Below, one piece after another: positions 4,828 through 62,980 of a stretch of 64,000 nt of DNA. The stretch's first letter is position 1, and the number at the start of each line of letters is the position of its first letter. The notes below the pieces were generated by a model, which was given only the letters and a program-made list of their open reading frames with translations, was not told the origin of the DNA and searched no databases. This DNA is from Pseudoflavonifractor sp. An44 (GTDB taxonomy: Bacteria > Bacillota > Clostridia > Oscillospirales > Oscillospiraceae): the NCBI RefSeq assembly GCF_002161675.1, contig NZ_NFIH01000001.1:62001-126000 (forward strand), in the 5' to 3' direction. Made by a program: the position numbers and the translations under genes.

Positions 4828-4832
4828 GAATC

Positions 4833-43250: not shown

Positions 43251-43320
43251 ATTTCTCACTCTCTCTTGTTGGAAAATTGTTGTTTCCAGTATACCCTTAA
43301 GGACAGAATCCAGCAAGTAT

Positions 43321-46300
43321 TTAACCAAGATCGTCTATCAAGTCTGATAATGGTTTGATCGCCTGAATATTGCTTCGAAATAGCTTATCCCACATATCTA
43401 GGCATGTAGCACAAATCGAAGGTTGCTTCTCTCCTCTATCAAAAAGCTTGACTACACACTTGATTAGGTCGGTCACTTCCAAATAAGAGTGTCTGCGCAC
43501 CCCCTTTCCTTGCGCAAATCCCTCCACAATCGTCATAAGCACCGGTGCATATTCACAGATATCCTCACCACTTTCATAGAGATACTTCAAAAACAAATGT
43601 ACCAAATGAGAACTTTGTACCGATGAAAACAATTTGCTTAAAAAATCTTTATCCCGATGGATAGAAATTTTCTTGTGTATGAAAAGCTGTCCAAGTCCAT
43701 CTATGCTCTCAGATGTGTTTTCAAGATAGTACAACAGAATTTCTTCACTTACTTCGTGAAATTCATCCAAATCAAAGCTAGAAATAGCTTGTCGGCATAT
43801 CTTTGATTTAGCTTTCGTGGAGAGTTCTGCAGAAGTAATCCACTCTAATGCCTTTGAATCAGAAAAGAAGATTCCAACTGCACACAACATGCCAGCTGCA
43901 CATTCTTCCAAATCCTCTAATTTTGTAGCACAGGCATCTATCAATTTATTGCGCAAAAACATACTGTGCTCCATATATTCTTCTCGTATTACTGTCCACG
44001 CTCCTGATGCATACAACACCCGCAGATCTTGACCAAGAATTTTTCGAAATACATCGTACGCAAATTTACGGTCTATCTGGTAGTACGCCTCCACACAATC
44101 CATCAAAGCAAAACGGACAGCTGCATTCTTATCTTTACTTACTTGGATTATCGTACTTTTAAAATACTCATCCAAATCACTATGGTTCCACAGCAGGGCT
44201 GCTACTGCGCCAACCGCTTCTCCTCTTACGCAATTTATGGAATTTTGAAGCAATGCGTTTGCAGTCAGATGATCTGGATCTGACTGACTTGTAACAATGT
44301 AATCATTCTCCTTGGGTTCTGGATGTGCCAATGCCATATTACATATCAACTCGAGCACTTCTTTTCCCCATACTCTACTGGCATTTCTGCTTATAAGCTG
44401 CGAAACCGACATTGCTATATTTCGATCACTGCGATGTGAAAATCGCTGGATGATAGCTTCAATCAGCTCTGTGGGGATATTTTCTCCCTTCTGTTCATCT
44501 GACAGCATGTTTAGGATGCTACATATATACGCAGCATCACAATTTTGAGGGAATGACAACGCAAGCTTGGCAAATCGTTCTGGTTCCTGTTCTGCCTGTT
44601 TCCTCATAGAGGACGCAAACATCCCGTGACTCGCCTCTATGCAATGATCCCCCTCCACCTGCCTAAACAAATGTTCCTTCATTTTATCAACTGGCGTAGA
44701 AATAATTTGAAGCCATCGTCGATCACTCAAGCGATCTGCATGATCATACACAGGCGAAACCACGCTCCCCCCAGGTCCTGATAAGACTCCACAATAATGG
44801 AAATGTGGAATACAAACCCATGTATTTCGGTTCAATTCTTGAATCAATGCTTTTGATTTTTCAGATAAGCGATTAAAATCCATACAAGGCAGCAATTCCT
44901 TTTGCAAATGCCCCCAATACGTCCAATATGCCCTTTGGTTCTGGCGGACTCTATTCCACTCGATACGGCGTTTCAGTCTACCAACCATTTCCTTGGAACT
45001 TTCTTTCCACGTGTAAATAATTTGTTCCAGTTGCCTGTAGACGGTTTCATCACAATGTATTGAGAATTTTTGAAGGATTTGTTTTGTATAGTGCAGATAA
45101 TCTTCCTCTTTCGCTGAGTACACCAGTATTTTTCTGTCAAAGTCTTTACACAGCCAACCTATCGCTTCATTTGAGTAAACATCTGGCAGAGAGCAAATTG
45201 CATGCATAATTAGTTCATGCCCAACTGCAGAAGTGGGATATTCCACCGCACGGACAAATTCCATAACCCACGCAGGATCGATTTTAGCGTACTCCTCTAT
45301 CGCTCGTTTACTAATATTCACGATTTCTCGTACAGTTGAATCGTTGTATCCACTCTGTATCCACTCACGGAACTCCCAATGCACTCCACATAATGTATAA
45401 GGCCACTGTAGTGTGTATTTTTTTGTAACATCGCAAATTTTCCCAAACAGTCGTTCGATAAACGCCTGATACTCGACTTTCGAATTCAACCCCCACAGTT
45501 CTAAATCTTTCACGTATATATGTATGTGGGCGTCTTTGCATTGCTCCCAGTTATCCAAGATGATTTCAAACACATCTATGATACGGATAGAGCGGCATTC
45601 TAAAAGTCTTGATATGCCCCAGAATTCATTTAAGATGATGGGATGTTTCCTCAAAATATCACATCTCAGCTGAAACATACGTTCAGAATCCTCACTAGGA
45701 TCAGTACATAGTGTGTCGAAAATCAAACGATCTTTCTCTTCGTCTTGTAGCGCAAACGGCGCAACATAATCTGCAACATAATCTGGTTCTATGTCACTGA
45801 TGGATCTCAAAAGGCGAGCAGATTGGTCATCAAGCTCTCCTTTCCACTCCTTCAAAACATGTCTGATATACTGCGGGTGCCTACTCAATACAGCCTGAAT
45901 CACATAGGTTCTCCACTCCGACTGCTGTATATAGTCATCTAGTAAAGCTAGAACCTCTGCCTCCGGTTGCTCACACTGCCCCATAATTTCAAACACCGTA
46001 CATTTGAAATAATATCTTACACCATCACTTTCCAACATCTTTTTTCCTTGCTCTGTGAACATGGACTGGTCTGTGTCAATCAGGGTCTGCAAAACAGATA
46101 ATACTCGGTAGCGAATCATGGGTGTTTGTTCGTCGAGCCCACCAACCAAGGTGCAAAGATCTTCACCAAAATAGATTCTACGGTTGAGGTCAGACACGAT
46201 AAAGTAATCTAAAAAACTTTGGTGCACAAAAGAAATTCCACTTGAGGGTTGATTGTGCTTCAATAACCCACTTGAGATAAATCTATCAACAACCTCATAA

Positions 46301-47895
46301 TAATCATTCAAAAGGACTCTAGGGATGACAAAGCGCCCTCGGTTTTCCATATATTCTACAATATCATCTCTGCATTTTTTCACCGTTTCAAGTCTAATAC
46401 CCGCCCTTTCACACTGCTTTTGAATTTGAGTCCACCATTCCCCCATCAATCCATACACTGATGAAACATGGTTTTTGGAACTGTTTTCTTCTAACTGTGT
46501 CCAAACATACAACGACGAAGGCGTCAACAACAGCTTTTGCAACCTGGACGGTAATTGCTTATATCGTGTGCCTATGATTTCTGTAACTTCCTCTTCCGTA
46601 AAAGAGTCAACCTTTACTCTGGACCACACCAGTCCACGCTGCCTCTCTTGATCTGAATTCTCAAATAAGCTTTTTAATCCTTTGTCATTCTCTAAATCAA
46701 ATGTCCGCGCAGCAAAAATAATCGAAACATTTCCATTCTGATAACCGTTAATGGATTCTGCCTGTTTAATCAGCTCTTTGCACACGTCCAAGGCAGTACT
46801 GGAATGACTGTTGGTCCACCGCAAGGAATCCAGTTGATCCAAAATCAGCACACACTTCTCTCCCGCCGCCATAGCGGACAAACTATACACAGGAGACTCA
46901 GGCAGTCCCAACTCTCTTCCATAACCATCCGCAGAAACCGCTGGGGTATGCTTATCCAATTTTACCGCAAGATACAGAGTCCCTTCCTCACTCAGAAAAT
47001 TGATGACCTCTTGAAGACATCCGCTTTTCCCAAAACCAGCCCTTCCATGCAGAATCACTGATTTTCCAGCATGCAAATCGTTTATGACCCGCTCTGTCGC
47101 AGTCCGATGTATAAGTTTATCATAGATAGCAGAGAATTCATCCCAGTGCATATGATTAAGTACATTTATTCTCTCTAATACACGCGTATCATACCCATAA
47201 TGTCTGGGGTGGAACCCATTCTTTTCCATATAATCAATAACGTCCTTCGCCGTTATCTTGACCCCATATCTCCCAGTGTCATTGGCATACTGCTCCAGCA
47301 AAATACGAGCATTCGATTCGTTCCCTGTAAATTCTTGACTTATCCGTTCCTCTAGGTCTCGTTGAGCTTCCAAACCCGTAGGACTATGTTCAAAATAGCA
47401 ATGGGAAAGGATGTACACCAGCTGTTCCAAATCTCCTGGGCAGTCTGGGTCTAGGTGTAACGCATTTGCACATTCCTTGAACTGTTTGCAAATAGTGTCA
47501 TTGTTCAACTGACACTCAACGAATTGCTGTGGCGATAGATTTGTTCTGGCCCGTTTACACAACTCATCGATTTCGTTATATGGCAGCGGTGAAATAAAAT
47601 AGTAGTCATTACCAACGTCTGAAACAATTTTTCTGGCACGATTCCAAACATCGTGCCCCTTTAAATCTGCTACTGACCAGAACTTTTTTGTCGAATTGCT
47701 CCCCTTACACTGGTAATAGTTTGTTTTTTCTTTCTCTTCAGCTATATATTCTACGCTGTCACTATTGGGCCCCAAAGGCTCGACAATAATTGACACCACG
47801 TTCTCTCTTGCCAATCTCAAAAGAAGTTTTGCAAAAAATTGATTTTCATATTTATTCCCATACTTGTCAGCACGGCCACCAGGCTCCAGGCTCAC
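43321..47895 (-). CDS. STAND-family NTPase with nuclease-like N terminus (Avs-like)
   Basis: A 1524-residue protein starting at the GTG at 47895, which has AGGAGGG at good spacing; the nearby ATG at 47901 touches that site. The N-terminal ~190 residues resemble a Cap4/DUF4297-type PD-(D/E)xK nuclease (GRADKYGNKYENQFFAKLLL, acidic residues at ~40-50, then NYYQCKGSN). The NTPase has SVILHGRAGFGKSGCLQEVI near 284 and CVLILDQLDSLRW near 345. The remaining ~900 residues are helical repeats likely to sense a target. This nuclease-NTPase-repeat layout is that of Avs antiphage sensors. It lies just after a terminator following the SIR2-like gene and 70 bases before the helicase gene. Confidence 0.82.
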   Translation of the reverse strand: MSLEPGGRADKYGNKYENQFFAKLLLRLARENVVSIIVEPLGPNSDSVEYIAEEKEKTNYYQCKGSNSTKKFWSVADLKGHDVWNRARKIVSDVGNDYYFISPLPYNEIDELCKRARTNLSPQQFVECQLNNDTICKQFKECANALHLDPDCPGDLEQLVYILSHCYFEHSPTGLEAQRDLEERISQEFTGNESNARILLEQYANDTGRYGVKITAKDVIDYMEKNGFHPRHYGYDTRVLERINVLNHMHWDEFSAIYDKLIHRTATERVINDLHAGKSVILHGRAGFGKSGCLQEVINFLSEEGTLYLAVKLDKHTPAVSADGYGRELGLPESPVYSLSAMAAGEKCVLILDQLDSLRWTNSHSSTALDVCKELIKQAESINGYQNGNVSIIFAARTFDLENDKGLKSLFENSDQERQRGLVWSRVKVDSFTEEEVTEIIGTRYKQLPSRLQKLLLTPSSLYVWTQLEENSSKNHVSSVYGLMGEWWTQIQKQCERAGIRLETVKKCRDDIVEYMENRGRFVIPRVLLNDYYEVVDRFISSGLLKHNQPSSGISFVHQSFLDYFIVSDLNRRIYFGEDLCTLVGGLDEQTPMIRYRVLSVLQTLIDTDQSMFTEQGKKMLESDGVRYYFKCTVFEIMGQCEQPEAEVLALLDDYIQQSEWRTYVIQAVLSRHPQYIRHVLKEWKGELDDQSARLLRSISDIEPDYVADYVAPFALQDEEKDRLIFDTLCTDPSEDSERMFQLRCDILRKHPIILNEFWGISRLLECRSIRIIDVFEIILDNWEQCKDAHIHIYVKDLELWGLNSKVEYQAFIERLFGKICDVTKKYTLQWPYTLCGVHWEFREWIQSGYNDSTVREIVNISKRAIEEYAKIDPAWVMEFVRAVEYPTSAVGHELIMHAICSLPDVYSNEAIGWLCKDFDRKILVYSAKEEDYLHYTKQILQKFSIHCDETVYRQLEQIIYTWKESSKEMVGRLKRRIEWNRVRQNQRAYWTYWGHLQKELLPCMDFNRLSEKSKALIQELNRNTWVCIPHFHYCGVLSGPGGSVVSPVYDHADRLSDRRWLQIISTPVDKMKEHLFRQVEGDHCIEASHGMFASSMRKQAEQEPERFAKLALSFPQNCDAAYICSILNMLSDEQKGENIPTELIEAIIQRFSHRSDRNIAMSVSQLISRNASRVWGKEVLELICNMALAHPEPKENDYIVTSQSDPDHLTANALLQNSINCVRGEAVGAVAALLWNHSDLDEYFKSTIIQVSKDKNAAVRFALMDCVEAYYQIDRKFAYDVFRKILGQDLRVLYASGAWTVIREEYMEHSMFLRNKLIDACATKLEDLEECAAGMLCAVGIFFSDSKALEWITSAELSTKAKSKICRQAISSFDLDEFHEVSEEILLYYLENTSESIDGLGQLFIHKKISIHRDKDFLSKLFSSVQSSHLVHLFLKYLYESGEDICEYAPVLMTIVEGFAQGKGVRRHSYLEVTDLIKCVVKLFDRGEKQPSICATCLDMWDKLFRSNIQAIKPLSDLIDDLG

Positions 47896-47930
47896 GGTCA
47901 TCCCTCCTAGCACAAGGTCTCTGGTATATA

Positions 47931-47971: not shown

Positions 47972-48073
47972 CAGGTTTATGGCCTGCCGCTAGTAAATTG
48001 TACCATATTTCAAGTATTTCTTCAATTCACATACACTCCGACACAGTCTAAAACTATTCCCTAAAGCCCAGAG

Positions 48074-49000
48074 CTACTCGGCCAGCCTACTTTGAATTCT
48101 TTGCCTTAGTCCTTCGTAAAACTGTGGAAATTCACCGTCCTGTACCAAATCGGAATGAACGTTCACACCATAGGCCTCTGCCAAAAGCTTTTTTTCATCG
48201 GCTATATTAGCATCCCAAAAGTATACACCAGAATTTTGGGATCCATGTCGCTTTTTACAATTTATCAGCCACCAAATATCCAATTCAGAAACACCCAGCC
48301 CAAATCCAATCGTATATACGTCCCCAATCATAAAGTAATCAACCCAGCTTTGCGGAACAAAATCCGTTTTTTGCTTTTGGCTGTACTGGTATCGACGAAT
48401 GAACTGATGAATATATTGCTGAATCATGCTGGTCAGCTCACAATAATAGTAGTGTCCGATAATCATTGTGTTCGGCTTAGCTAATTCGCCATGAATATGC
48501 CAGATACGCTGGGTAGCCGTCTCTGTTGGAATCTCAAAGTACTGGTGTAACTTTCCGGTCTTCTTATCAACCTTTAAGTCGACAGCCTTCTTCCGATACT
48601 TGTGGCTTTTCCCTGTAGCAACTGAAAAGTCCGTCATCAAAGAACTCTCAATTTCGTATGTATAATTTGTAGTCAGAATCGCATCAGGATTCAGGCTGCA
48701 AAAGCCACGAATTAAATCCAATGTTTTTTCGTTTGCTTTTCCGTTATCTACTTCTTTGGCATTCTCAGCTACGTATTCCTTTAATTGTACGTCCACACGA
48801 TCTCCAGTCAACACCACTGGACGCATAGGATATGGCAGTTTTTTTATCTGTTGGACTTCGTCGTCTGACAATTTGACACATTTTATTTTATCCAGAAGAG
48901 AATCCCACGAGTCTCCTCCGAATGCCTGGAGCACACCGCTTCCAATCAGAAAGACTACTGGCGTCTTTCCATACGGAATAGGAGGTAAATTTCCCTTCAT
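48074..49000 (-). CDS. SIR2-like NAD-binding protein
   Basis: A 308-residue single-domain protein with SIR2-type motifs: VVFLIGSGVLQAFGGDSW (NAD-binding loop) near residue 15, DAILTTNYTYEIESSL near 107, RIWHIHGELAKPN (catalytic His region) near 165 and DVYTIGFGLGVSELDIWWLI near 225. In defence systems such domains deplete NAD+ when phage is sensed. No sensor domain is fused, so it may work with the adjacent STAND NTPase or stand alone. A strong terminator follows its stop. The direction is the same as the STAND gene. Confidence 0.82.
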   Translation of the reverse strand: MKGNLPPIPYGKTPVVFLIGSGVLQAFGGDSWDSLLDKIKCVKLSDDEVQQIKKLPYPMRPVVLTGDRVDVQLKEYVAENAKEVDNGKANEKTLDLIRGFCSLNPDAILTTNYTYEIESSLMTDFSVATGKSHKYRKKAVDLKVDKKTGKLHQYFEIPTETATQRIWHIHGELAKPNTMIIGHYYYCELTSMIQQYIHQFIRRYQYSQKQKTDFVPQSWVDYFMIGDVYTIGFGLGVSELDIWWLINCKKRHGSQNSGVYFWDANIADEKKLLAEAYGVNVHSDLVQDGEFPQFYEGLRQRIQSRLAE

Positions 49001-49971
49001 CTGTTACAGCTCCCTCTGGGCAAAACCATCAAATCCATTGGCTCGTAGAAACTATGCTTCATTCCCCCAACGCCTCAAAGTGTTTTTTGGCGCAGCAAAT
49101 CTTGGCCAATTCTGAGGAACGCAGACTTTCTTTCTCCACATTTTTCTTGGTCTCCACCCACAAAATAGAGTTTGTGCTGCCGTCGTCCTCCAACAACCGC
49201 ACAGTTATTAGGCCCTCTGCTCAATGGCGACGCGAACCCATAATATCATGCCTGAACAGGCAGGCACATTGCTCTATGACAATAAGTCCATTTCCCTCTT
49301 TTGTCTCAATCATAGATACGCTTAACAGTCAAATCGTTCCAACCGCTTCTGTGAAACTGAGGTGGAAGCTTGCTTTCCTCACGATATTGTCAATCCATCT
49401 CAAAGTCAATGAAAAAAAGCCGCACTGGAGAAGGCCCTGGATAGAAACGGTCATAATATTCTTGCTTTTGGATTACTCAACATTTTACTTCTGGCGATAG
49501 TAATATTCTCATCAGGTGTCACAACATTCACAAACTCTTTCGCCCGCTCGTTAGAGATCTTTAGTGTCGATAAGTCGACTGATCACAATAGATGATTTTA
49601 TATTAAAACGAAGTCCACATATAGCTGTTCCTGTGCCATTTAAAAATCGTTTTTGCTACAATCAGTAATTATTGGATTGACTTCTTGCCCACCACTATCG
49701 GCATACACTGAGCGCACTCGAGCATCATTCAACTACTCGATGATTCTATCCTTCCCCCGGATACTCCGCTTCTTGCAGCCATACATTCCCATATCCATAA
49801 TCCTCCGATCAAATCCGATTGGCTCCACAAGATTCTTTGGGAACCTACTAAAGCCCATTAGCTTTCTTTAGACTGTTCTACGTATTTCTAAAGTAAGCCT
49901 CGAGTATCTAGGCTCCTACCATAATACAGAGTTGAATCTCACAAATACCTTATCGAAAGCCTTCTTTGAGA
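49001..49971 (-). pseudogene. ~1 kb of decayed sequence with type III restriction (Res) remnant
   Basis: No intact gene is seen. On the minus strand at ~49210-49065 a short open piece reads RLLEDDGSTNSILWVETKKN then VEKESLRSSELAKICCAKKH and FEALGE plus stop, which matches the extreme C terminus of type III restriction Res subunits (ETKG...K..CA.KHFE pattern). Further upstream (49960-49500) other minus-strand fragments such as VRSVYADSGGQEVNPIITD and GLRFNIKSSIVISRLIDTKD are separated by stops and frameshifts. The region is probably the residue of a deleted restriction system. Confidence 0.5.
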
Positions 49972-50970
49972 TTATCCACGGAATGGAATTTTAGATTTAC
50001 GAACCACAGTACCTCCAATTTCGACGCTGTCTGAATCTGTTGAGGGTAATTCTCCAGAGAGCATATGTACAACAGCTCTATAAATGAGTTCTTGATTTTG
50101 ACCCGGCCCAACAATCAGACTCTTCACAATACTCTTACTTCTGTCTTTCGCTTGAAACACAACCTGCAGTGTGGGTTTCACAACGTTTTCCGACACATAA
50201 TAATGCACAGGGAAGTAAACACCAGCCCGTTTGGACGAATCTGCATCTGCCGTATGAAAGATCAACCTAGTTTCTTTTTCTTCTTTAAACCCCTCGTCTT
50301 TACAAAATGGCATAAATAGCCCCGCCAGTAGTGACACTTCCTGGATATGTTCACTGTTTGTTTCATTCCACATATATAGTTGCCTGTGGTATTGCTCTTT
50401 CTCTTCTTCAGAGTATTTTACTGGAATTGGTCCGATTTTATCATCAAACATTGGCAGAACAGAGTTTTCCTTATCTAACAGTTCATAATGTTTATATTGA
50501 ATATTATCCATTGCAAAAGAGATTGCAATTCCGCTATTTTTCCCATACCACTTCCATTGACTGAGCAGATCGTTGTTACCACAAAATGATATACTATACA
50601 CATTATTTCTATACGTATCTTCAAGCCTAATCTTTCTGTTTTTCTCTATCCATTTGAAATCTTTATAGGCATCTTCAATTCCATTTTTTCTATGTTTCTC
50701 TAACCATCTGAAACCATCTACATATTCATTCGTATCATTCAGAAACCGCAGATGACTTGCACGCATGGTACATGTCAGAATTGGATATTGCTCATCATCA
50801 TGGTATTGACGTTGCCCGACCAGTTTTATATGTTCATCAAAAATACTGACAAATGCTCCGGGCGAAGTATAGTGACAATACATCTCATCTTCTGGTGCTA
50901 CTGTTTTTCTATATATAGTATATACTGTTTGAAGGCCATGTCGCATGGCATCCAAAGTTGTAAACTCCAT
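49972..50970 (-). CDS. DUF2971-family protein, fourth gene of the GHKL operon
   Basis: A 332-residue protein with DUF2971 hallmarks: MYCHYTSPGAFVSIFDEHIK near residue 30, HLRFLNDTNEYVDGF near 75, VYSISFCGNNDLLSQWKWYG near 122, GIAISFAMDN, and GFKEEKETRLIFHTA near 230. The family resembles ADP-ribosyl-type or other small-effector folds in my reading, but no activity is established. Its ATG follows the stop of the receiver-like gene with a 2-base gap, so it is translationally coupled. As the last and smallest-domain gene of the operon it is a candidate effector. Confidence 0.82.
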   Translation of the reverse strand: MEFTTLDAMRHGLQTVYTIYRKTVAPEDEMYCHYTSPGAFVSIFDEHIKLVGQRQYHDDEQYPILTCTMRASHLRFLNDTNEYVDGFRWLEKHRKNGIEDAYKDFKWIEKNRKIRLEDTYRNNVYSISFCGNNDLLSQWKWYGKNSGIAISFAMDNIQYKHYELLDKENSVLPMFDDKIGPIPVKYSEEEKEQYHRQLYMWNETNSEHIQEVSLLAGLFMPFCKDEGFKEEKETRLIFHTADADSSKRAGVYFPVHYYVSENVVKPTLQVVFQAKDRSKSIVKSLIVGPGQNQELIYRAVVHMLSGELPSTDSDSVEIGGTVVRKSKIPFRG

Positions 50971-50972
50971 TT

Positions 50973-51665
50973 TTACACTCCTCTGGGCTCTTTATTATAG
51001 TACAGTCGTGCATATATCAATCCAAAATAGTTACCATAGTAGGTGCCTTTATTGTTTTCATTTCCCCCCTTATCGAGGAGCAGCCTATTAATGGATGGTG
51101 GGTCATTATCTCCTTTGGTATGAAATATATGGTAAAACATTGGAAATGCCGGACTATCTCTTGTAAATTCATGTGTCTCAGGGTTATAGGGACGATAGCA
51201 TTCTATGATTCTATCTCGATCCTCTTTAGAAAAATATTTTTCTTTCAGCTCTGAAAAAGCAGTACATTTATATGAACTTGTGAGCGTAATAACCAGCTTC
51301 CACTCTTCAAACCACTTACGTGCAAACTTATTTCTGATAATATGGCTTGCCAGTTTAAACCCTAATGTCTCGTCCTTGTCATCCAAACAGAGATCAATCA
51401 CTAGCTCTAGTTTTTCCACCCCCGCATCTATCTCACTTTGTACCGTATCCAAAACAAGCCTAATGCCAGACTGTACATCCTGAGCAATTTCTCCATCTCT
51501 CAAACTACCATCGTCATTTAGACAAGTTGGATCATGGGATAAATCACATAAACAATCTACAATCTTTACATCTGACACCCCATCTTGTGTAAGTATGTCA
51601 TTTAGTTCCTGTTTCTGTCTCTCCAAAATTATATTGTTATCATCAATAAAAATAACCGCTTTCAT
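50973..51665 (-). CDS. Response-regulator-receiver-like protein without output domain
   Basis: A 230-residue protein starting MKAVIFIDDNNIILERQKQE at 51665 (GAGGAGG upstream). The opening strand ends in the acidic Asp-Asp pair at 8-9 typical of receiver domains. LELVIDLCLDDK around residue 91 would be the phospho-acceptor strand, and LVITLTSSYK near 125 matches the Thr/Ser-Lys part. The acceptor lies ~35 residues later than usual, so there is an insertion (residues ~40-75). The C-terminal third has no recognised DNA-binding domain. It sits between the 1308-residue GHKL protein and the DUF2971 gene, suggesting a phospho-relay-like or decoy signalling role. Confidence 0.65.
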   Translation of the reverse strand: MKAVIFIDDNNIILERQKQELNDILTQDGVSDVKIVDCLCDLSHDPTCLNDDGSLRDGEIAQDVQSGIRLVLDTVQSEIDAGVEKLELVIDLCLDDKDETLGFKLASHIIRNKFARKWFEEWKLVITLTSSYKCTAFSELKEKYFSKEDRDRIIECYRPYNPETHEFTRDSPAFPMFYHIFHTKGDNDPPSINRLLLDKGGNENNKGTYYGNYFGLIYARLYYNKEPRGV

Positions 51666-51682
51666 TTTTCCTCCTCTTACTT

Positions 51683-54600
51683 TCACTCACTCCAGACTGG
51701 CGCCACACACAAAAATTGTGACTCATATCCATCTTCTTTTTCTTCCATAGAAATACGGAAATATCGATAGTCTGACCCACAATGTTGGTTCAAATATTCG
51801 GTAAAAAACATTTTTGTAAAACCAATGTGAGAGGTATCGCTTCTCTGCTGTATAGGCAGTCTATTTTTCACCGTCATACGATAGCAGTGATCATAACTGG
51901 TATATTGATTGTTCTCTTTCATATCTTGTGGTACCACAGACTCCCCCATTTCACAAGATATTTCTATCTCACGAGATGGTCCTGAATGTTCCACCGCATT
52001 TCGAATAAACACATCAAGAATACCAATTAATTGAACCATATCTGGTACATCATCAGCTATTAAAATAGTGGGGACATGCCATATTTCCTTTATTTTTTCA
52101 AATGTGTTTGGAGAAATTGATACAGACATTTTATACTCCCCGCTTTGTAGTTGACCTGAATGTGCTTTATTCTGCATGCTTTTAAGAATATTCTCGAAAT
52201 ACCCAGATTTTTCATCTTCCAATATTCTAAAATAGTCTTCTAGGTCCTTTGCACAGTCTCCAGGCCTCTTCAATTGAAGCACCCCACTTCCAAATGGCTG
52301 CAGGCCAGGCGGTGGCGAAAAGATTCGTCTCACTACAAGATTTGTAGCTCCCTCCGCAATACACCGATTCATGAAAATATTTAAGGCATTGTATGCCTCG
52401 TACTCTCGGTCTGTCTCTTCCGTATCTCTCATCAGCGCAAACAGTCTCCTTACCAGTGACAGCATTCGAGTTAAGTCTTTTGATCGTCCATGTGACAAGG
52501 TCTTACCAGTTTCAAGGATTGTTCCTGCAGCCTTTGCTTGAATCGCCGCTTTTAGTGCGCCAGTTTCAATATCTGCCTGAACAATTTTTAAGATTGTTCT
52601 GCGTTGAATCAAGATTTTCCGTATTACCTTATAATTCTCAAGCTTTTCCTTTTGAAACTGCAGTCGAAGATAAACCCTCCCAATATTTTTTTCACAGTCT
52701 GGTCTATAGCTGCTACGTCTTTTGCTCTCTCCCCTCCCTTGTTCACACCGCATCTCTCTCCTAATGTCATGTTCACCCTTCGCCTGAAACATAACCCAAA
52801 AGCATTTTCCGTCATTCTCAGGAATAGAATACCCCATTTGTTCAAGTTCTTCTTCCTCTTTGGGGGAAAATCCAAAGTCTCCTCTACTCAACCGAAACGG
52901 TTGCGTCAACTCCACATTTTCCCCTCCAAAATCCGCATAAAAGGTGCACGTTAGTTCGGGTGATATATCCGCCAACTCCTTGCCAATGCGTCGATACTTA
53001 GTTATTATATTTTGATTATTATCTTCTACTGCTCTAAGGACTTTCTGCTGTACCACTTCATCTTCAGAAGAAAAACGGATATTCTCCAAATACAACACCT
53101 GATATAATTTTCTTCGTTCTCTATCCACATTGGTTTTCCAAAGAAGTTCAGTTAGTTCCTTTTCTGCACGGATAGTCTTTTCCCGACCGCTGACACCGCA
53201 AATCAATCGTTTTGTGTAATTGACTAAGAGTGTGTAAAAGCCTTGAATCCCTTCATTACGGAAATTTGGCCCACTGCTAAAACAGCAGTAATTTTTGTTA
53301 AGCCTCGCCACATACTTGCAGACCTCGTCAATATGGCCTGCTGTAATTAAATAGTTTGAGCCAATATTAGACAGACATGAAAGCAGGACACATAGTAACT
53401 GGTAATGGATTTTTACATAAAGTTTCTCTTTACCACTTTGTGAGCCTGTCCACTTTTTTACCCACTGCCTCCACGGCATATTTAGAGAGATTTGGAGCTT
53501 CTCTGCGCTTTTTTTAATTAGCTTGCAGAGGGAACAATCCGTACGAGTTCCTACTCGTTCAACTGGATTCAAACTCAGATATGATTCCAGTATGGTCAAC
53601 ATTATCCGCATAGCAGCCTTCTTCCCGTTCTCCTTATAATATAAAGGCGCTCGAGAAATTGACTTTAAAAAAGAGATTAGAACTTCATACTGCTGCTCCA
53701 CCTCTAAGGTCCTCAATTCATTGGCAATAATCTCAATATATTTCTGGACAAGTTCGTGCTCTCCCCAAATATTTTCTGTCTCCTGACACAATTTATTTTC
53801 ACAATACAACCTGGTAAAATGGCGCTGGCGTATTTTATATGTGTGTGTGGGAAATGCTTCCCTCGCCCCCTCTAAAGTACGAAGGTAGAGATGTTCCTCC
53901 CTCTCTTTCCAATAATACTCTGTACTACTCAAGCAGCAATTTTCTTCTATCCTTTTACATTCTTCAATCTCTTTACAAATAGGGCAAGTGTCTCCATAGT
54001 TTCCCGGTGTTGGAACAGAAAGTCGAAGAAAAGAGAAGTAATTCTCAATTGATGAAACATAACTTCTTCTCGTGCTGTCTGAGGTCCGATCAATCAATGT
54101 AAATACAGCAGAAAACACCTCACATCTTCTTAAAAGTTCATCTTTCTCTCCAGCGTATCGATGGAGAAGCGATAAAACAAAAGATTTTGCACGATAGAAT
54201 GTTTCTCCAGTAATAATTTCATCGTCAACATAGTAAAAGCAAATCCTTGGCAAAATTTTACCTTCAGAATGTTGATCTACTTGTTTCAAAATGTATGCAT
54301 AGTTAGAATATTTTGTTTCAAAATTGGAACGATACTCTCGGCTAGGGTCAAAAGATATTTCATGTGCAGCATTGTTGAAGACTCGTCGATTGATTTCATG
54401 AGGAAAACGATTGTTGCTAAAATGTAGTGGCGAAATTAAAATATGAAGTACATTTGCATTCTGCTTATTTTCAAACATATGAACACGCCGTTGGATTCTT
54501 TTACAATAATCATCAAATTGAGGACTTTTCATCACGACATTTCCAAAAAAAGAGTTTGTTCGTATGTAATATCGAAAATGGTGGTCTCCCCGAACAATAT

Positions 54601-55609
54601 GAGAGTAATATAGGTAATCTCTATTCAAAAACAGATTGCTGCTCTGATCTTTTTTGAAGAACAACTCTAAGCTTTGCTCATTTTCTCTGTTTCTCATTCC
54701 TGCTGTAGAAGAAAACTTTTTGGGTACTGATGATGTTCCAATCTGTTGCACCGGTATAACGGCAGAGGAGTCTGTAATTACAAGCGGCCGTTCATCTAAA
54801 GAATTCTCAGGAAAACACCATTGACATTTTGTTGCCAACTCCCACTCCGCCTCTACATCGACTAAATAATGCACTCGAAAATTCTTTTCATCTGGGGTTA
54901 TCCGGTCAATTACTTTCTGATGACGATCCCATTTCAAATAATCCATTTGCCCAAACGCAAATCCATCTTTTTGTTGAGCAAGGACTTGAACAATACTAAA
55001 GTAGTCCCACTCTATTTTCTCCAGTAGAACATCGGTTGCTTTGTCTTGTTGCAACTGGCACTCAAACGCGTTTCTCATTTTAGCAAATGTGCTAAGTGTC
55101 GAAGATATTCCACAAAGGAATATTACTTGGCCAATACGTTCTAATTTTTGTAAGTTATCTGGAAAATACCGAAGTCTAGCCTTGCTTACATGCCCGTTCT
55201 GTAAATCACCTGGTTCTTCATAAATGCAGTATTGAAAGTGTGGATTGCTATATTTTAGGTTTGCTAATAAAGGCTCAATATATGTATCATAACCAATTAC
55301 AAGACAATTTCTTCCCAGTCTTCCTTTTAGTTGCTGCTCCAACCAAATTGTAAAACGTGATATCCACTTCGCATGTGAAAAGAGAATCTGAGCCTCAAAA
55401 AAGGAATTCATATGAACAATTCCAGTACCAATTTTAATATGTGTATCTTGAATATGACACCCTAGTGATTTTTGGTGGATATCATTCTCTAAAATATTTC
55501 TTAGTTTTTTTACCCATACTTCTTCCTTTTGTTCATCCAGACCATCCCCAATTTTTAATGAATAGCAGGACTCCCTTAATCTATATAGTTCATCGTGTGA
55601 TCTATCCAT
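51683..55609 (-). CDS. 1308-residue protein with phosphoribosyltransferase-like and GHKL ATPase-like regions
   Basis: A very large protein of no family I recognise as a whole. An N-terminal Rossmann-like part (GRNCLVIGYDTYIEPLLANL, VIFLCGISSTLSTFAKM) and RICFYYVDDEIITGETFYRA near residue 458 resemble a type I phosphoribosyltransferase, the latter matching the PRPP-binding loop. A Cys cluster (CPICKEIEECKRIEENCC) near 540 and CSLCKLIKK near 691 could bind metal. The C terminus has a GHKL N-box-like helix, LIGILDVFIRNAVEHSGPS, near 1196, with a weak G-box (SHIGFTKMFF). It overlaps the upstream GHKL gene by 8 bases and precedes the receiver-like gene. It is probably the core of an unknown sensing complex. 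Confidence 0.7.
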   Translation of the reverse strand: MDRSHDELYRLRESCYSLKIGDGLDEQKEEVWVKKLRNILENDIHQKSLGCHIQDTHIKIGTGIVHMNSFFEAQILFSHAKWISRFTIWLEQQLKGRLGRNCLVIGYDTYIEPLLANLKYSNPHFQYCIYEEPGDLQNGHVSKARLRYFPDNLQKLERIGQVIFLCGISSTLSTFAKMRNAFECQLQQDKATDVLLEKIEWDYFSIVQVLAQQKDGFAFGQMDYLKWDRHQKVIDRITPDEKNFRVHYLVDVEAEWELATKCQWCFPENSLDERPLVITDSSAVIPVQQIGTSSVPKKFSSTAGMRNRENEQSLELFFKKDQSSNLFLNRDYLYYSHIVRGDHHFRYYIRTNSFFGNVVMKSPQFDDYCKRIQRRVHMFENKQNANVLHILISPLHFSNNRFPHEINRRVFNNAAHEISFDPSREYRSNFETKYSNYAYILKQVDQHSEGKILPRICFYYVDDEIITGETFYRAKSFVLSLLHRYAGEKDELLRRCEVFSAVFTLIDRTSDSTRRSYVSSIENYFSFLRLSVPTPGNYGDTCPICKEIEECKRIEENCCLSSTEYYWKEREEHLYLRTLEGAREAFPTHTYKIRQRHFTRLYCENKLCQETENIWGEHELVQKYIEIIANELRTLEVEQQYEVLISFLKSISRAPLYYKENGKKAAMRIMLTILESYLSLNPVERVGTRTDCSLCKLIKKSAEKLQISLNMPWRQWVKKWTGSQSGKEKLYVKIHYQLLCVLLSCLSNIGSNYLITAGHIDEVCKYVARLNKNYCCFSSGPNFRNEGIQGFYTLLVNYTKRLICGVSGREKTIRAEKELTELLWKTNVDRERRKLYQVLYLENIRFSSEDEVVQQKVLRAVEDNNQNIITKYRRIGKELADISPELTCTFYADFGGENVELTQPFRLSRGDFGFSPKEEEELEQMGYSIPENDGKCFWVMFQAKGEHDIRREMRCEQGRGESKRRSSYRPDCEKNIGRVYLRLQFQKEKLENYKVIRKILIQRRTILKIVQADIETGALKAAIQAKAAGTILETGKTLSHGRSKDLTRMLSLVRRLFALMRDTEETDREYEAYNALNIFMNRCIAEGATNLVVRRIFSPPPGLQPFGSGVLQLKRPGDCAKDLEDYFRILEDEKSGYFENILKSMQNKAHSGQLQSGEYKMSVSISPNTFEKIKEIWHVPTILIADDVPDMVQLIGILDVFIRNAVEHSGPSREIEISCEMGESVVPQDMKENNQYTSYDHCYRMTVKNRLPIQQRSDTSHIGFTKMFFTEYLNQHCGSDYRYFRISMEEKEDGYESQFLCVAPVWSE

Positions 55610-57815
55610 TTCGTCCTCCTAGAAGATGAGCTGCAATTTTAATTGCAGTGTCTGTCATTCCCCCATATAGGCAACTGACAGATAGGCTTTCTTTAATGCT
55701 TTTCAAATTATTTCCATGAAATAAAATATCAAGTTTTCCATTGGAGTCCACCAAAAAAAGGCTTTTCTTTTGAGTCAAAATTCTATTATTTCCAGCTCGA
55801 TCAAAAAATAGTGCAAACAGCCGAAAGAGTTTGATGACATCATACGGTCTGGTAACATTAACAAGTGCAAGGTTATCGAGTGTAGAACATTTATCGGCCA
55901 GATATAAGAAAATAGCTTTTACCATAACCTCATATGCCTCTAGCCTATCCACACTTAAATTGTTGACCACCTTCTCACAATCAATCACTCCAATATACAG
56001 ATGCGTCGATGCTATTTCCTCCGGTGAAGCTTTGAATTGTTCACCCAACTCTTTCCAAAGCTTTCGTGTTAAGTCTTCTCTCTCTAATCCAACTGAAATA
56101 GGCCCTGAGAACTTGAAATCTATTCGCCGACAGTTCGGGACTGTATCATGTCTCCACGAGATTAAGTCCAAATAGTCTGTCTCTTCCTCAAGATTTTTAG
56201 ATCTTAATGGAACATAAATAGTATAACTAGTCCCATACTCCCATAGGAAACCACAGGTATGCTTATATAAACCGCCTACCGATGAGTTTTCAAAGCAATT
56301 ATTGTCTCCTGCCCCGCTTTGGACATAAAAATATCCATTCATAGACATGACTACACTATTTAGAATTGGGAGTCCATAATGAAACGCAATATTGTCCGGA
56401 GTTGATAGATAATCAACAAATGGTTTGCAGCTTCCTTGTCCAAGAAAATCCGACAAAGACATATGACAATGGTCAGGGTCAGATTTCAAATCCTGGATAT
56501 AACTATTTAATTCTTCTTGAGTTTCTGCATCTTCTTTTTTTATCAGTTCGCTCGCATTTTCCAAACTTTGTGAGAGGTGGAATTTCATGTGTACCAAACG
56601 CTGCTCAGGAGAATTTTTATAGTCCTCACATCGTTGTTCTACATTTGCCTTGAATTTATCTACAATGCCCTGAAAGTTCTCATATTGTATATCTGTTAAA
56701 TACAATTCCATAAAGTGTTCTACGTTCTCTACCAAACTGTGAGCTTCATCGGGCATCAGTGGGTCCAAATAAATTTTTTCTGCATCCCTAATCTTACGAT
56801 ACCTGATGGTCAATATACCACATCCAGATTGACCATCATCTCCCAGTACATGTGTCACTACATTCTCAACCAGCTGTAATACTCCTTGGGCGAAGTTCAT
56901 ACACGTTTCGTGCAAAAACTCCAGATCTAGAGATGCCTGTCCTAATGTTGTAATTCCATTTTGCACCTCAATATAGTTACACAAACCTAAAAAAAGCAGC
57001 GTCTCAAAACAGCTATCACTTGCTAAATATTTTAGTATTTCTTCACTCCGATTTGCATAAACACCTTTTTTTAAGCGCTCAAAATAACCATTACACAAGT
57101 CTTTTAATGGTCTTATCCAACTATTTATCTCTGAGTCTGAAGAATACGATGCCGTAAGCGCACTATAAATCTGCTTTGTGATTGGTATTTGCGGAAAAAC
57201 CCTACCCAAAGGCATAGTTCTATTTTCTTTGGCCTCTATCTTATATTGTCTTGGTAAACTCGCCCAATTAGCCTTTTCACCTTTTTGTGTTTTTTTATGG
57301 TATACAAAAAAGCATTCATAGATTTTTTCAAAAATATGGTCTGTATTATCGCCGTTGTCTTCATTACGATTACGATAAAAATATAAGCTGTGGGCCAGCC
57401 GGAAATAGTCACTAGTCGTAACTGGCGTATATCGTTTAGTTTCCCCTTTCCCTGCAGAAACCAAAACTGTACAATCTAACCCATCATGAAACATTTTCTG
57501 CATGACCAAGAGCAAATATTGAATATCAGTAATATCCTCATTTTGCCCAATCACCAATTCCAGGACTACTTTTTGCAAGTTTGTCTGCACAACTCCCATC
57601 GAATCATATTCTTGCAATATTCGTTTATCTTGACGTTGAAAAATCCTACTCCACTCTGAACCCGTTCTTGGGTTTAGAGCGCAGATATAAAACCTACAAA
57701 ATAAAAGGTTGGAATCGACTGTGTCTACTTGCGAAAACCCAGAATACGCCAATTTCAACAACAACCCAATGGAATTTCGTCGGCATTGAAGACGGCAAAG
57801 ACATACCCGTGTCAT
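55602..57815 (-). CDS. GHKL-type ATPase protein, first gene of the novel operon
   Basis: A 737-residue protein starting at the ATG at 57815 (AGAAGGGA upstream); longer starts at 57833 and 57878 are possible. The centre has an N-box-like helix (FAQGVLQLVENVVTHVLGDD near residue 305) with DDGQSGCGILTIRYRK. Near 480 a GHKL G-box-like block reads FHYGLPILNSVVMSMNGYFY with VQSGAGDNN. A region of ~150 residues is inserted between the boxes. There is no transmembrane segment, no phospho-acceptor His domain and no DNA-binding motif. It overlaps the start of the 1308-residue gene and is expressed from the promoter at 57902-57930. ATP-dependent conformational switching, as in Hsp90/MORC/GyrB proteins, is a reasonable inference. 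Confidence 0.68.
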   Translation of the reverse strand: MTRVCLCRLQCRRNSIGLLLKLAYSGFSQVDTVDSNLLFCRFYICALNPRTGSEWSRIFQRQDKRILQEYDSMGVVQTNLQKVVLELVIGQNEDITDIQYLLLVMQKMFHDGLDCTVLVSAGKGETKRYTPVTTSDYFRLAHSLYFYRNRNEDNGDNTDHIFEKIYECFFVYHKKTQKGEKANWASLPRQYKIEAKENRTMPLGRVFPQIPITKQIYSALTASYSSDSEINSWIRPLKDLCNGYFERLKKGVYANRSEEILKYLASDSCFETLLFLGLCNYIEVQNGITTLGQASLDLEFLHETCMNFAQGVLQLVENVVTHVLGDDGQSGCGILTIRYRKIRDAEKIYLDPLMPDEAHSLVENVEHFMELYLTDIQYENFQGIVDKFKANVEQRCEDYKNSPEQRLVHMKFHLSQSLENASELIKKEDAETQEELNSYIQDLKSDPDHCHMSLSDFLGQGSCKPFVDYLSTPDNIAFHYGLPILNSVVMSMNGYFYVQSGAGDNNCFENSSVGGLYKHTCGFLWEYGTSYTIYVPLRSKNLEEETDYLDLISWRHDTVPNCRRIDFKFSGPISVGLEREDLTRKLWKELGEQFKASPEEIASTHLYIGVIDCEKVVNNLSVDRLEAYEVMVKAIFLYLADKCSTLDNLALVNVTRPYDVIKLFRLFALFFDRAGNNRILTQKKSLFLVDSNGKLDILFHGNNLKSIKESLSVSCLYGGMTDTAIKIAAHLLGGRNG

Positions 57816-57901
57816 GACAATCCCTTCTCTCATTGTTTTTCGCAAGACAACAGTATCTAGAGTGTAGAATTTGAGCAAACACCATCAAATTAATTTTCCA
57901 T

Positions 57902-57930
57902 ATTATAACACAGGATCAGCATAATGTCTA
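57902..57930 (-). promoter_or_regulatory. Promoter of the GHKL/PRTase/REC/DUF2971 operon
   Basis: On the minus strand TAGACA (57925-57930), a 17-base spacer and TATAAT (57902-57907) make a near-consensus sigma-A promoter. The predicted RNA start near 57895 leaves an ~80-base leader before the ATG at 57815. Confidence 0.78.
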
Positions 57931-58028
57931 GTTCCGCATAGAAATACGCGTCTTTTTTGTTGAAATCGATGCGCGGAAATCTATTAAACTACTCTAAGCC
58001 AATGTATCATCGTTATACGAACTGCGTA

Positions 58029-58054
58029 ATATTCATGTGGCTGTACATGAATAT
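58029..58054. promoter_or_regulatory. Dyad operator candidate between divergent defence operons
   Basis: A perfect 10-bp inverted repeat (ATATTCATGT and its complement, 58029-58038 and 58045-58054) with a 6-base spacer lies in the ~360-base gap between the GHKL operon and the BREX operon. It is a good candidate repressor site. No BrxR-type regulator gene is seen in the window. Confidence 0.55.
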
Positions 58055-58242
58055 ACTTCTAAGATTTGAGGAGACATTTGCTTACGATTGTCTCAGATAA
58101 TGTGGCCTTAAAGTACAGGGGACAGTATCGCTCCGCACATCGCACAGTCTCTATCACAGGATATTTCTGTGGCAGAGGCTGTAGTTTTATGGTATTCTAT
58201 AAATTGATGTAAAATACACTTTTAACATTGAGGGCATGGCAT

Positions 58243-58845
58243 ATGAATGTGATAACTTACAACGGCGCATTAACCGCAGAGCAATTTCTGTTCTATGAAA
58301 TGCAGATTTCAGCCAAATTTTACCTGCAAAATATCCCCTTAGAAGATGCAATTTCCGCTATCAAAGCGGGTAATCTCTTCCAATATCCCACAGAACGGGA
58401 GGTTTCGCGCATGGCTCGGGCCTGCTACCGTCGTTTGGATGCTTTGGAGAATCAAAATTTGGTGGAAGCACTTGTAAATGCACCATTGGAAATGGCCAAG
58501 CAGATCAACCTGTATGCCCTCATGCGATATAATCGTCTTGTGTGGGACTTTATGGTTCAAATAGTCGGTGAAAAGTTTCGCATTCAGGACTTTTCTTTTC
58601 AGCGCAAAGAGTTAAATATATTTTTCTCCCGACTTCAGGCGCAAAATGACACTGTGGCCAGCTGGAGTGACAGTACCATTGGGAAAATCAAAAGTGTATT
58701 GGTACGTTGTCTGGTAGAGGCAAAGTTTCTGGACAACTCCAGAGCCACCACTTTGAATCCTGTTTATCTCTGTGAGGAACTTGAGCAAGGCATTCGAGAG
58801 AACAACGATTTGGACGCACTCCCTGCGTTCAATTGTTTTCGTTGA
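58243..58845 (+). CDS. brxA: BREX protein BrxA (DUF1819)
   Basis: A 200-residue DUF1819 protein: ITYNGALTAEQFLFYEMQIS at the start, AKFYLQNIPLEDAISAIKAG, then FQYPTEREVSRMARACYRRL and ALMRYNRLVWDFMVQIVGEK. BrxA is a small helical DNA-binding component of BREX. The ATG at 58243 is preferred to an in-frame TTG at 58228 (GAGGG upstream of the ATG). It is the first gene of the BREX operon, which continues brxB-brxC-pglX with very short gaps. Confidence 0.92.
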   Translation: MNVITYNGALTAEQFLFYEMQISAKFYLQNIPLEDAISAIKAGNLFQYPTEREVSRMARACYRRLDALENQNLVEALVNAPLEMAKQINLYALMRYNRLVWDFMVQIVGEKFRIQDFSFQRKELNIFFSRLQAQNDTVASWSDSTIGKIKSVLVRCLVEAKFLDNSRATTLNPVYLCEELEQGIRENNDLDALPAFNCFR

Positions 58846-58859
58846 GGAGGACACAAACC

Positions 58860-59414
58860 GTGTTAAAAGCAGAATTAGACCGTATTCGAGAGCGGATCTC
58901 TGACCCCAGTTTTCTCAATAACAAAGGTTTGAGCAATGAGGTAGGGATCCATGTTTTTTGTTATGATCCATCCGAAGAACTGATGGTTCAGGACTATATT
59001 CGGCGGTTAAAGGAAGATGCCCTTGCCCCCTACCGTATCATTGAGTGCGACCTATACGAAATCTTTCTTCAACTGTTGGAGGAAAAACGAGTCCTTAAAT
59101 CCACACCAGGGCTGGAGGAAAAACGTGGCAAAGACTATCTCTTGCAACAACTGCAAAAAATCGCCACTGCTGAGGCTCTCTTAGCCAAAATGGACTATAC
59201 CCCCCATGTGAAAGGTCAGGATGTCCTGTTCATGACCGGTATTGGCAAAATTCATCCGTTCATGCGTTCCCACAAAATGCTGGACAGTATGCAGCATTTG
59301 TTTGCGGACATCCCTGTTGTCATGTTTTATCCCGGGACCTTTAATGGACAAACACTAAGCTTGTTTGGCGAGTTTGTGGACGGAAACTACTACCGGGCGT
59401 TTAATCTGCTGTAA
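58860..59414 (+). CDS. brxB: BREX protein BrxB (DUF1788)
   Basis: A 184-residue DUF1788 protein containing ERISDPSFLNNKGLSNEVGI, HVFCYDPSEELMVQDYI and a C-terminal ADIPVVMFYPGTFNGQTLSL block with FGEFVDGNYYRAFNL. A GTG start at 58860 is chosen because AGGAGG lies 8 bases before it; the upstream in-frame TTG overlaps brxA without a site. BrxB is required for BREX defence; its biochemical role is unclear. Confidence 0.92.
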   Translation: MLKAELDRIRERISDPSFLNNKGLSNEVGIHVFCYDPSEELMVQDYIRRLKEDALAPYRIIECDLYEIFLQLLEEKRVLKSTPGLEEKRGKDYLLQQLQKIATAEALLAKMDYTPHVKGQDVLFMTGIGKIHPFMRSHKMLDSMQHLFADIPVVMFYPGTFNGQTLSLFGEFVDGNYYRAFNLL

Positions 59415-59429
59415 GGGAGACAGAGAGCT

Positions 59430-62400
59430 ATGAAAATACAATCGATGTTTCAAAAGGACATTAATCGAGATATTAACGGCGTGGTCAAGGTGGCTCAAGA
59501 CGACGAGCGGAGCCTAAAGCAAGAACTCAGCGAGTATATCATCACCAAGGAACTGCGCCGTCATTTCCGCACCTTTTTTGATAACTACACCAAGGCCATC
59601 GATCAGCCCACCGACAAGATGGGCGTTTGGATCTCCGGCTTTTTTGGCAGCGGTAAATCTCACTTTCTGAAGATGCTCTCCTACCTGCTCTCCAATCAGG
59701 TGGTCAGCGGAGCCCCAGCCATTGATTACTTTCAGGGCAAGTTTGATGACCCCATGATGTATGCCCAGGCGGTCAAGTGCGTCTCTGTCCCCACGGAGTC
59801 CATCCTGTTCAACATCGACATCGAGGGCCCCATCAACAAGGATAAAACCGCCGTTCTTCGTACTTTCGCAAAAATGTTCTACAATCACTGTGGATTTTAT
59901 GGCGACGACTTAAAAATCGCCAAGCTGGAGCGGTTCATCGACCGACAAGGCAAAACGGAGGAATTCCGCCAGAAGTTTGAACAAGTCAACGGCGCCCCAT
60001 GGGCAGAGACGCGAGACTCCTTTGCTTTTTTCGAGGATGACGTGGTGGAGGTGCTCCAGTCTGTCCTGGGCATGAGCGAACAGGCAGCCCGCAATTGGTT
60101 CAACGGTGAAGAGACCAACGAATTGAGCATCGCTCAGCTGGTGTCCGACATCAAGGAATATGTGGACAGCAAGGGCGACAAGTTCCGTCTGCTGTTCATG
60201 GTGGACGAGGTGGGCCAGTACATTGGAGATGATGGGGATTTGATGATTAACCTCCAGTCCCTGGTGGAAGAGCTGGGTTCCAAGTGCATGGGCCAGGTCT
60301 GGGTCATGGTCACCAGTCAAGAGGCCATTGACTCTGTCGTCAAAATTGCCGGAGACGATTTTTCCAAAATTCAAGGGCGGTTTAACACCCGTCTAAGCCT
60401 GTCCTCCTCCTCGGTGGACGAAGTCATTCAAAAACGTGTGCTGGCAAAAACACCGGAGGCCGACCAACTCCTGCATATGGTGTACGACAAGGAACAGGCC
60501 GTTTTGAAAAACCTGTTTTCTTTCCAAGATTCCGTCTTGGACATCAAAGGTTTTGCCGATGGCGCAGAATTTGCCGCCACGTTTCCATTTGTCCCCTACC
60601 AGTTCATCATCATCCAAAAGGTGCTGGCAGAAATTCGCAAACACGGAAATTCCGGCAAGCACTTGTCTGGAGGCGAGCGTTCCATGCTCTCCGGCTTCCA
60701 GGAAGCCGCTCAAAAGGTGCAGGACAAGGACGAAAATGCGCTGCTCCCCTTCCATCTGTTCTACGACACTGTTCACACCTTCTTGGAGAGCTCCATTCGT
60801 CGGGTCATCGATCGCTGCCAAAACGCGGCAGACAACCACGATGGCATTGAACCTCATGATGTAGACGTGCTCAAATTGCTCTACCTGATCCGCTACATTG
60901 ATGATATCAAGTCCACCATCGATAACATTGCCACCCTGATGGTAGATGACATCCACACCGACAAAATCAACCTGCGTGCCTCCGTCACCGCCTCCCTGGA
61001 GCGGCTGCATTCTCAGAACTATATTTCCCGCAATGGAGACACCTACACGTTCCTCACCGATGAGGAACAAGACGTAGCCAACGACATCAAAAACACCGTG
61101 GTGGACTCCAACCAGATCACCCAGAGCATTGCTCAGGCCGTGTTTGGCGAAATCTACCCCAGCAAAAAGTTCCGCTACAACGAGCACTATACCAGCATTC
61201 CTGTGGACCAGTACATTGACGAAACCCTCGTCGGCTCTTCCAGCGGCGGCATTCGTCTGCGTATCATCACCGTGGCCAGCGACCACTATCGGGACGCTGA
61301 CCAGAAACTGATGCTGGAGTCCCAGGTGAACAACGAAGCTATTTTGGTTCTCTCCGGCGATACTCAGTATTATGAAGAGCTGGAGCAGGCCAAGAAAATT
61401 GAGGAGTACCGGAAAAAGAAAAACGTCTCTCAGCTTCCCGAGAGTGTGCAAGACATCATCCGCAAGAAAAACACGGAAAAACTGGCCATGGAGAAGCGGG
61501 CCAAGGGCTATTTGGAGAAAGCCATTGTGGACGCCAAGGTGTTTGTCCACGGGGAGCTCATGACCATTAAGCTCTCCAACGCCAAGGACAAGCTGGACGC
61601 CGCTCTGCGGGGCCTGGTAGAGAGCGTCTACTCCAAGCTGAACATGGTCAATCACTTTGTGGACAGCGACGCCGATATTTTGTCCATTCTCAACGCCCCT
61701 GCTGAGGCGGACATCAGCTTGGCCGGTTCTGGTGCCAACAACGAGGACGCTCTCAACGAGATCAGCCAGTGGCTGGAGTTGAAATCCGTAGGCCCTACCA
61801 TCTCCATGGGGGATGTGCAGCGCCGCTATCAGGCCATTCCCTACGGCTGGCGAGAAATTGACATCGCCGCCCTGATGGCTCGCCTGGTGGCCCGCCAGAA
61901 GATCTCCATCAAATACGGCGGTGCAGTGGTGTCCAAGGACGACCGAAAGCTTGTGGATTATCTCCGCAAAAAGAGTGAAATTGACAAAGCAGTAGTGACC
62001 CGTCGAATCGCTCCCTCGGAACAGCTCATGCGCAAGAGCGTTGCATTCCTCCGGGAGTATCTGGGCGCCATGGACATCCCCTCAGACGAAGACGGTCTGG
62101 TGCGCTATGTCCTGGACACCTTCGAGTATAAACTGGCCCACTATCAAGACCTGCTGGAGCATTACGAACAGAACCAGTATCCGGAACAGGCCATCGTCTC
62201 CGCTGCCCGAGATTTGGCCCAAGATGTACTCAGCCAGCGCAAGGACAATGTAGCTCTCCTCACCCGCATGGTGCAAAAGCAAGATGATCTGCTGGACGCC
62301 AAAGAGGATTTGGAAGATGTGGAGCTGTTTTTCAAAAGCCAACGTGGTGTCTTTGACGAGGCCGTCAGCCAGATGCGCCGTGTCAGCCGGGAGCAAGACT

Positions 62401-62966: not shown

Positions 62967-62980
62967 AGGAGGTACCTGGG

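Follow-up and report, generated by a model that had tools for sequence, protein, structure and literature searches.

A modular GHKL and phosphoribosyltransferase gene system with a candidate ADP-ribosyltransferase effector beside BREX genes in Pseudoflavonifractor sp. An44

The 64,000-nucleotide stretch of Pseudoflavonifractor sp. An44 DNA analyzed here, referred to as the window (positions 62,001 to 126,000 of contig NZ_NFIH01000001.1, assembly GCF_002161675.1), contains four genes, A to D, whose open reading frames (ORFs) are intact and lie head to tail on the minus strand (49972-57815). They encode a protein with a GHKL ATPase domain, a protein with two phosphoribosyltransferase (PRTase) folds and a second GHKL domain, a receiver-like protein, and a DUF2971 protein. 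The gene set is a real modular system that, apart from D, is new to the family libraries used. The intact genes, their conserved co-occurrence and order, the PRTase folds in the model of a relative, the HATPase profile matches, and an exchange of outputs among relatives support this conclusion. With little better than even confidence, we propose that the four genes form a single sensor-relay-effector system with an anti-phage role. Such a system would sense phosphoribosyl pyrophosphate (PRPP) or nucleotides and would act through phosphotransfer and ADP-ribosylation.

The core of the system, which consists of the GHKL domain of A (GHKL1) and the PRTase part of B, was found at eight loci, including the window. 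Five of them (type I: the window, L004, L016, L017, and L024), from five genomes and four genera, have the complete set in one order, with the core followed by a second GHKL part (GHKL2), then the receiver-like gene, and last the DUF2971-like gene. In L024, the DUF2971 match falls below the cut-off (E 0.024), and GHKL2 is the most degenerate of type I. The ORFs are split after GHKL1 in the window, before GHKL2 in L004 and L016, and not at all in L017 and L024. The other three loci (type II: L018, L019, and L020) share the same core and have a calcineurin-like phosphoesterase as their last part (E 1.6e-8, 4.6e-7, and 2e-14, respectively), which in L018 lies with the core in a single chain of 2540 residues. 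No receiver or DUF2971 gene adjoins the core in the ORF lists of type II loci, and their proteins have no GHKL2 part. A core tree of eight rows, with two long branches of which one is the window's, separates types I and II by a 100/100 branch.

Because the same parts occur in the same order at five loci despite differing gene boundaries, they are best read as one system, and because the core is kept while three loci swap the output for a phosphoesterase, this system is modular. An earlier, preliminary description of this DNA had proposed the four-gene set, which stands. It had named a failure of homologues to co-occur as grounds for rejection, which is refuted by the joint presence of the A to D parts at five of the eight core loci. 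It had overlooked that there are two PRTase folds, that the genes are fused at some loci and split at others, and that the effector changes between relatives. Alternatively, A to D could be unrelated neighbors that share an operon by chance, with D as a solitary gene of the kind modeled by PDC-S31. DUF2971 genes are indeed frequent on their own (19 of 109 genomes of relatives), and D weakly matches the PADLOC model PDC-S31 (E 2.9e-4, residues 113-256). This alternative is nevertheless very unlikely because the gene boundaries shift between loci, with parts fused in some and split in others of five divergent loci that keep one order.

Searches with single proteins returned 1 of 291 genomes of the class, the window's own, and 2 of 119 relatives, with one homologue from the same genus (L004, on a contig of an uncultured Oscillospiraceae metagenome-assembled genome). 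A contig scan with two peptide patterns matched 1 of 121 stretches, on the contig of G298, which had been seen before. Profile searches matched 6 of 400 genomes of the family including the window's own, adding G1118, G1112, G1139, G1143, and G831, and 3 of 375 genomes of the order, adding G1230 to two already seen. The phylum sample yielded nothing beyond the window (1 of 398), and a search of G1230's family nothing beyond G1230 (1 of 200). Since profile searches were needed to detect relatives, the single-protein counts understate the frequency of the core; the genome samples overlap and yield no grand total. A single-protein search with B had no match in plasmids or phages, the 2540-residue protein of L018 had none in plasmids or phages, and the L017 protein had none in plasmids. 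Viral contigs gave no confirmed match.

Gene A (55602-57815) encodes 737 residues from its ATG, and its frame is open further up to a TTG at 57878. An N-terminal part of unknown fold precedes the HATPase-like GHKL1 (56196-56948), whose limits were set by motif (N-box QLVENVVTH at A314, HYGL at A479, and GTSYTIYVPL at A528). The hhalign reference sets came from the same genome, with 24 of its 27 HATPase matches used, 21 of its 22 receiver matches, and 7 of its 8 PRTase matches. In these comparisons, whose pairwise values are uncalibrated (top off-family value, 5.6%), an eight-row GHKL1 alignment (A6) matched the HATPases at 93.7% (E 1.9e-7), the receivers at 0.17%, and the PRTases at 0.07%. The HATPase, receiver, and PRTase profiles each scored best with their own family. 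GHKL domains in A and at the end of B, as initially described, are thus supported by profile comparison rather than by structure.

Gene B (51683-55609) encodes 1308 residues with two PRTase folds, a long linker, a candidate phospho-histidine, and GHKL2. In PRTase-a (54842-55399, about B71-256), the loop GISSTLST at B167 replaces the PRPP loop and lacks the acidic pair, which is found in 0 of 8 copies. PRTase-b (54005-54586, about B342-535) is flanked by CxxC at B262 and CPIC at B542 and carries the PRPP-loop motif FYYVDDEIITGET (54200-54238, B458-470), whose acidic pair (VDD) is present in all five type I copies and one of three type II copies. The predicted structure of the relative L004 shows two PRTase folds in tandem, where a single one had been suggested, and 48 of the 50 structure matches listed for it are PRTases; 2jh3 and 4paw bear other titles. 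The fold of both parts is that of orotate and hypoxanthine-guanine phosphoribosyltransferases, which also share the PRPP-loop motif with PRTase-b. Unlike these enzymes, B has two copies placed between ATPase domains of one signaling protein, PRTase-a is without the acidic pair, and the sequence similarity is too weak for Pfam. The absence of both folds, which would speak against the proposal, is contradicted by the L004 model for the PRTases and by profiles for GHKL.

GHKL1 and the PRTase part form one ORF in all seven relatives, and therefore A and the first half of B most likely form a complex in the window. Neither a comparison of B with PDB sequences nor searches with the profiles A6, A7, A3, and A8 returned a believable relative. 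A STAS-like part between GHKL1 and PRTase-a and a GAF-like part ahead of the output module were impressions from reading, and nothing confirmed them.

The C-terminal part of B and protein C are candidates for a relay. A conserved block of B (52472-52603, B1003-1046) contains H1040 (codon 52490-52492), a candidate phospho-accepting histidine judged from sequence conservation. This linker block between the PRTases and GHKL2 is gapless in all five type I proteins, with an Arg followed 37 residues on by a His when anchored by eye. An unanchored gapless search with a 46-residue window in four of the five type I proteins (L016 left out) placed four of six pairs in the H1040 register, and for each of these no more than 3 of 200 shuffles scored as high. 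The pairs window-L004 and L017-L024 matched best, over 46 residues, in a different register, and the same test with 24 residues gave a signal mostly within chance. The HATPase-like GHKL2 (51686-52057, N-box around RNAVEHS at B1203) was likewise compared with HATPases; four rows scored 89.8%, the full five rows 36.0%, the window's own row 57.3%, and L004 with L016 18.1%.

Gene C (50973-51686) encodes 237 residues from a GTG, with an in-frame ATG at 51665. Its acid pair D15-D16 and candidate acceptor D98 recur in all five type I copies. Against the receiver profile, L004 and L016 together reached 77.0%, the window protein alone 0.5%, and other subsets with the window row 0.3% and 0.4%. The receiver proposed in the preliminary description is thus supported by profile in these two relatives but not for the window protein by itself. 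Initial alignments with all rows were of poor quality for both receivers (A7, 3.7%) and GHKL2 (A9, 4.8%), and the higher figures for both come from chosen smaller and shorter subsets. Pfam HATPase models did not match the GHKL domains of A or B.

The low receiver value of the window protein, together with the lack of a Pfam HisKA match in the H1040 block and of a Pfam receiver match in C, would also fit the same system without a phosphorelay. Its ATPase domains would then be ATP-driven conformational switches, and C would be a pseudo-receiver keeping D inactive up to its release by the sensor complex. Type II systems lack GHKL2 and the receiver, so their core may be able to drive an effector by direct contact. 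However, the candidate histidine and the receiver acids are conserved throughout type I, and the receiver-like gene and GHKL2 strictly occur together (5/5 type I and 0/3 type II loci). A system without phosphotransfer is rather unlikely in our estimate.

Gene D (49972-50970) encodes 332 residues and is the candidate effector. It belongs to DUF2971, as first described (Pfam E 1.3e-8, above the cut-off; PHROGs phrog_1762, E 2.5e-18), and has the motifs HYTS at D33, ND at D78, SQW at D137, and E231/E233/R235. In VIA-align, seven of eight entries for its structure model (predicted local distance difference test, pLDDT, 73.4; predicted template modeling score, pTM, 0.75) belong to the ADP-ribosyltransferase (ART) superfamily. 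For its N-terminal YH.T stretch, the alignment value is 17.2% with DarT and 0.15% at most with other families. The D protein of L017 has a faint ART match (E 0.06, below the cut-off). The DarT family PF14487 did not match D, for which hmmscan lists solely DUF2971 at E 1. The structure model makes D a candidate DarT/Tpt1-like ART effector. The ADP-ribosyltransferases DarT, of the DarTG toxin-antitoxin, and Tpt1/KptA count among the known systems closest to this one. Five proteins of the system and 13 of the 22 loci fetched make up the DUF2971 alignment, two of the 22 being the window and L004 again. Besides D (49972-50970) and loci L082-L103, phages also carry DUF2971 proteins, whose function is unknown (phrog_1762). 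The predicted ART fold may extend to other DUF2971 proteins, including those of phages.

In the proposed mechanism, the GHKL domain of A and the first half of B, with its two PRTase folds of which the second has an intact PRPP loop, would act as a sensor unit. This unit probably responds to PRPP or to the nucleotide state, or to a change in it brought about by a phage. The end of B, with H1040 ahead of GHKL2, would serve as a histidine-kinase-like output and phosphorylate D98 of C, and C would then release or activate D. By ADP-ribosylation, D would modify nucleic acid or a host protein and stop phage growth, probably via cell arrest. A bolder proposal is a new immune class in which a GHKL and two-PRTase sensor of phage-disturbed PRPP or nucleotide pools is joined to interchangeable outputs, either a His-kinase relay to a DUF2971 ART or a fused phosphoesterase. 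We advance it tentatively and hold it to be somewhat doubtful.

A, B, and C have no Pfam or NCBIfam match above curated cut-offs, no PADLOC match at E 1, and no PHROGs match at E 0.01. A known PADLOC system was dropped as an explanation, since A, B, and C are unmatched and D is weakly matched; PDC-S31 is a one-gene model in which A, B, and C have no counterpart. Whether the set is already a named system had been raised beforehand, and in the portions of the literature searched the combination of GHKL, PRTase, receiver, and DUF2971 is undescribed. According to the figure legends of the DefensePredictor study, HATPase, REC, and PRTase occur in systems that it predicted or validated, and overlap with one of these is possible (PMC13092281). 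From the same source, in the parts consulted, DS-8 has a metallophosphatase joined to a NACHT domain and DS-9 has one paired with a HAD phosphatase, which resembles the calcineurin-like phosphoesterase output of type II relatives, whereas a PRTase or GHKL core is unmentioned in these descriptions (PMC13092281). The phosphoesterase of L020 weakly matches PDC-S60 (E 2.5e-6).

The idea of a kinase-receiver-effector relay in phage defense is shared with Detocs (PMC9966839). As described in the portion consulted, Detocs is said to rely on ATP nucleosidases, whereas D is a DUF2971 protein with ART-like fold matches and falls outside that description (PMC9966839). The sensors also differ, with a GHKL and tandem-PRTase core here and no PADLOC match for A, B, or C. 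The gene set may work like a defense two-component system and is kept apart from Detocs.

The overlap of A and B is 8 bases, and 2 bases separate C from D; B and C either overlap by 4 bases, with the GTG start of C, or lie 17 apart, with its ATG start. The coordinates and spacings first given (-8, 17, and 2) were right, 17 being that of the ATG start. The promoter placed at 57902-57930 on the minus strand is the best promoter-like site of the region, with TAGACA and TATAAT 17 bases apart and a TG before the second hexamer. It is the sole 11-of-12 match among 31 promoter-like sites listed in 49300-58300, which taken together are not above chance (expected 27.5, standard deviation 5.3). Within the 412 bases that separate A from brxA, a site of such quality arose in 1 of 3000 dinucleotide shuffles, by a criterion chosen after seeing the site. 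Terminator-like sites are not above chance (5 found and 5.4 expected). The G+C content is 37-41% over the operon and up to 54% at 60001-63000 inside the BREX genes (scan of 48001-60000 and the neighboring stretch), a contrast that suggests separate arrival.

The window copy lies among defense genes. A complete-looking type I Wadjet system, JetABCD (33291-39874), is followed by two adjacent ORFs (40095-43328) that match the same type IV restriction model (profile 14-279 and 297-935) and, by sequence, are a split or broken gene. A large STAND-like protein (43321-47913) matches the candidate PDC-M54A (E 3.3e-14), and an AbiH/SIR2-like gene (Pfam) lies on the same side of the operon as Wadjet. BREX BrxA and BrxB (PADLOC) lie on the opposite flank. 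Further away are a helicase-like protein matching Mokosh-type models (26495-29212; MkoC, E 8.5e-52, and MkoA, E 2e-49) and, at 835-9476, a WXG100-like protein (below the cut-off) with an FtsK/SpoIIIE-FHA protein, a combination familiar from type VII secretion.

These surroundings argue against a non-defense role in which the genes would mediate a nucleotide or PRPP stress response, or would be mobile-element cargo for its own upkeep or rivalry, with D modifying a host target. Effector swapping on one sensor core is usual in defense systems and counts against it as well, as do PADLOC matches at E 0.001 for three of the seven tested neighbors of relatives, a raw count with no background control. 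On the other hand, the sensor fold belongs to nucleotide metabolism, and an AT-rich operon (37-41% G+C) beside a 54% BREX stretch fits recent transfer. The neighbors of relatives include recombinase and Toprim genes (L016), recombinase, insertion sequence (IS), FRG, and ion-channel genes (L024), and TPR, HTH, and amidase genes (L018), so that relatives stand near mobile-element or ordinary genes. A role outside defense is unlikely on balance. For the anti-phage system that we favor, clear defense genes flank the window copy alone, the neighbors of relatives being mixed, and the defense role is thus mainly a context argument from one locus. The neighborhoods of relatives are suggestive of defense, yet form no clear defense island. 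Guilt by association, invoked in the preliminary description, therefore holds for the window, between AbiH/SIR2-like, STAND-like, and Wadjet genes and BREX, but not across the relatives. Its sense-relay-kill design gains from the candidate phospho-histidine, the conserved receiver acids, and the ART-like effector model, but not for defense itself.

Some neighbors of relatives are of interest in their own right. In L024, an FRG-domain gene (PADLOC PDC-S15, E 1.7e-10) overlaps an ion-channel gene (14511-16765), with recombinase and IS genes close by; the two are possibly a separate defense pair. An Exo_endo_phos gene (E 8.7e-9) adjoins the type II system of L020 (3299-4228), and a similar-looking ORF with no Pfam match at E 0.001 lies just upstream of that of L019 (4009-4773).

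If the proposed system is correct, a metabolic enzyme fold, the PRTase, would be the likely sensor in a defense-type system, and a two-component relay would control ADP-ribosylation. Its loci would offer a natural series of split and fused forms with two exchangeable outputs. They also raise the testable question of whether the system senses nucleotide or PRPP pools. Additionally, an enzyme class is proposed for DUF2971, a family of unknown function in related genomes and among phage proteins.
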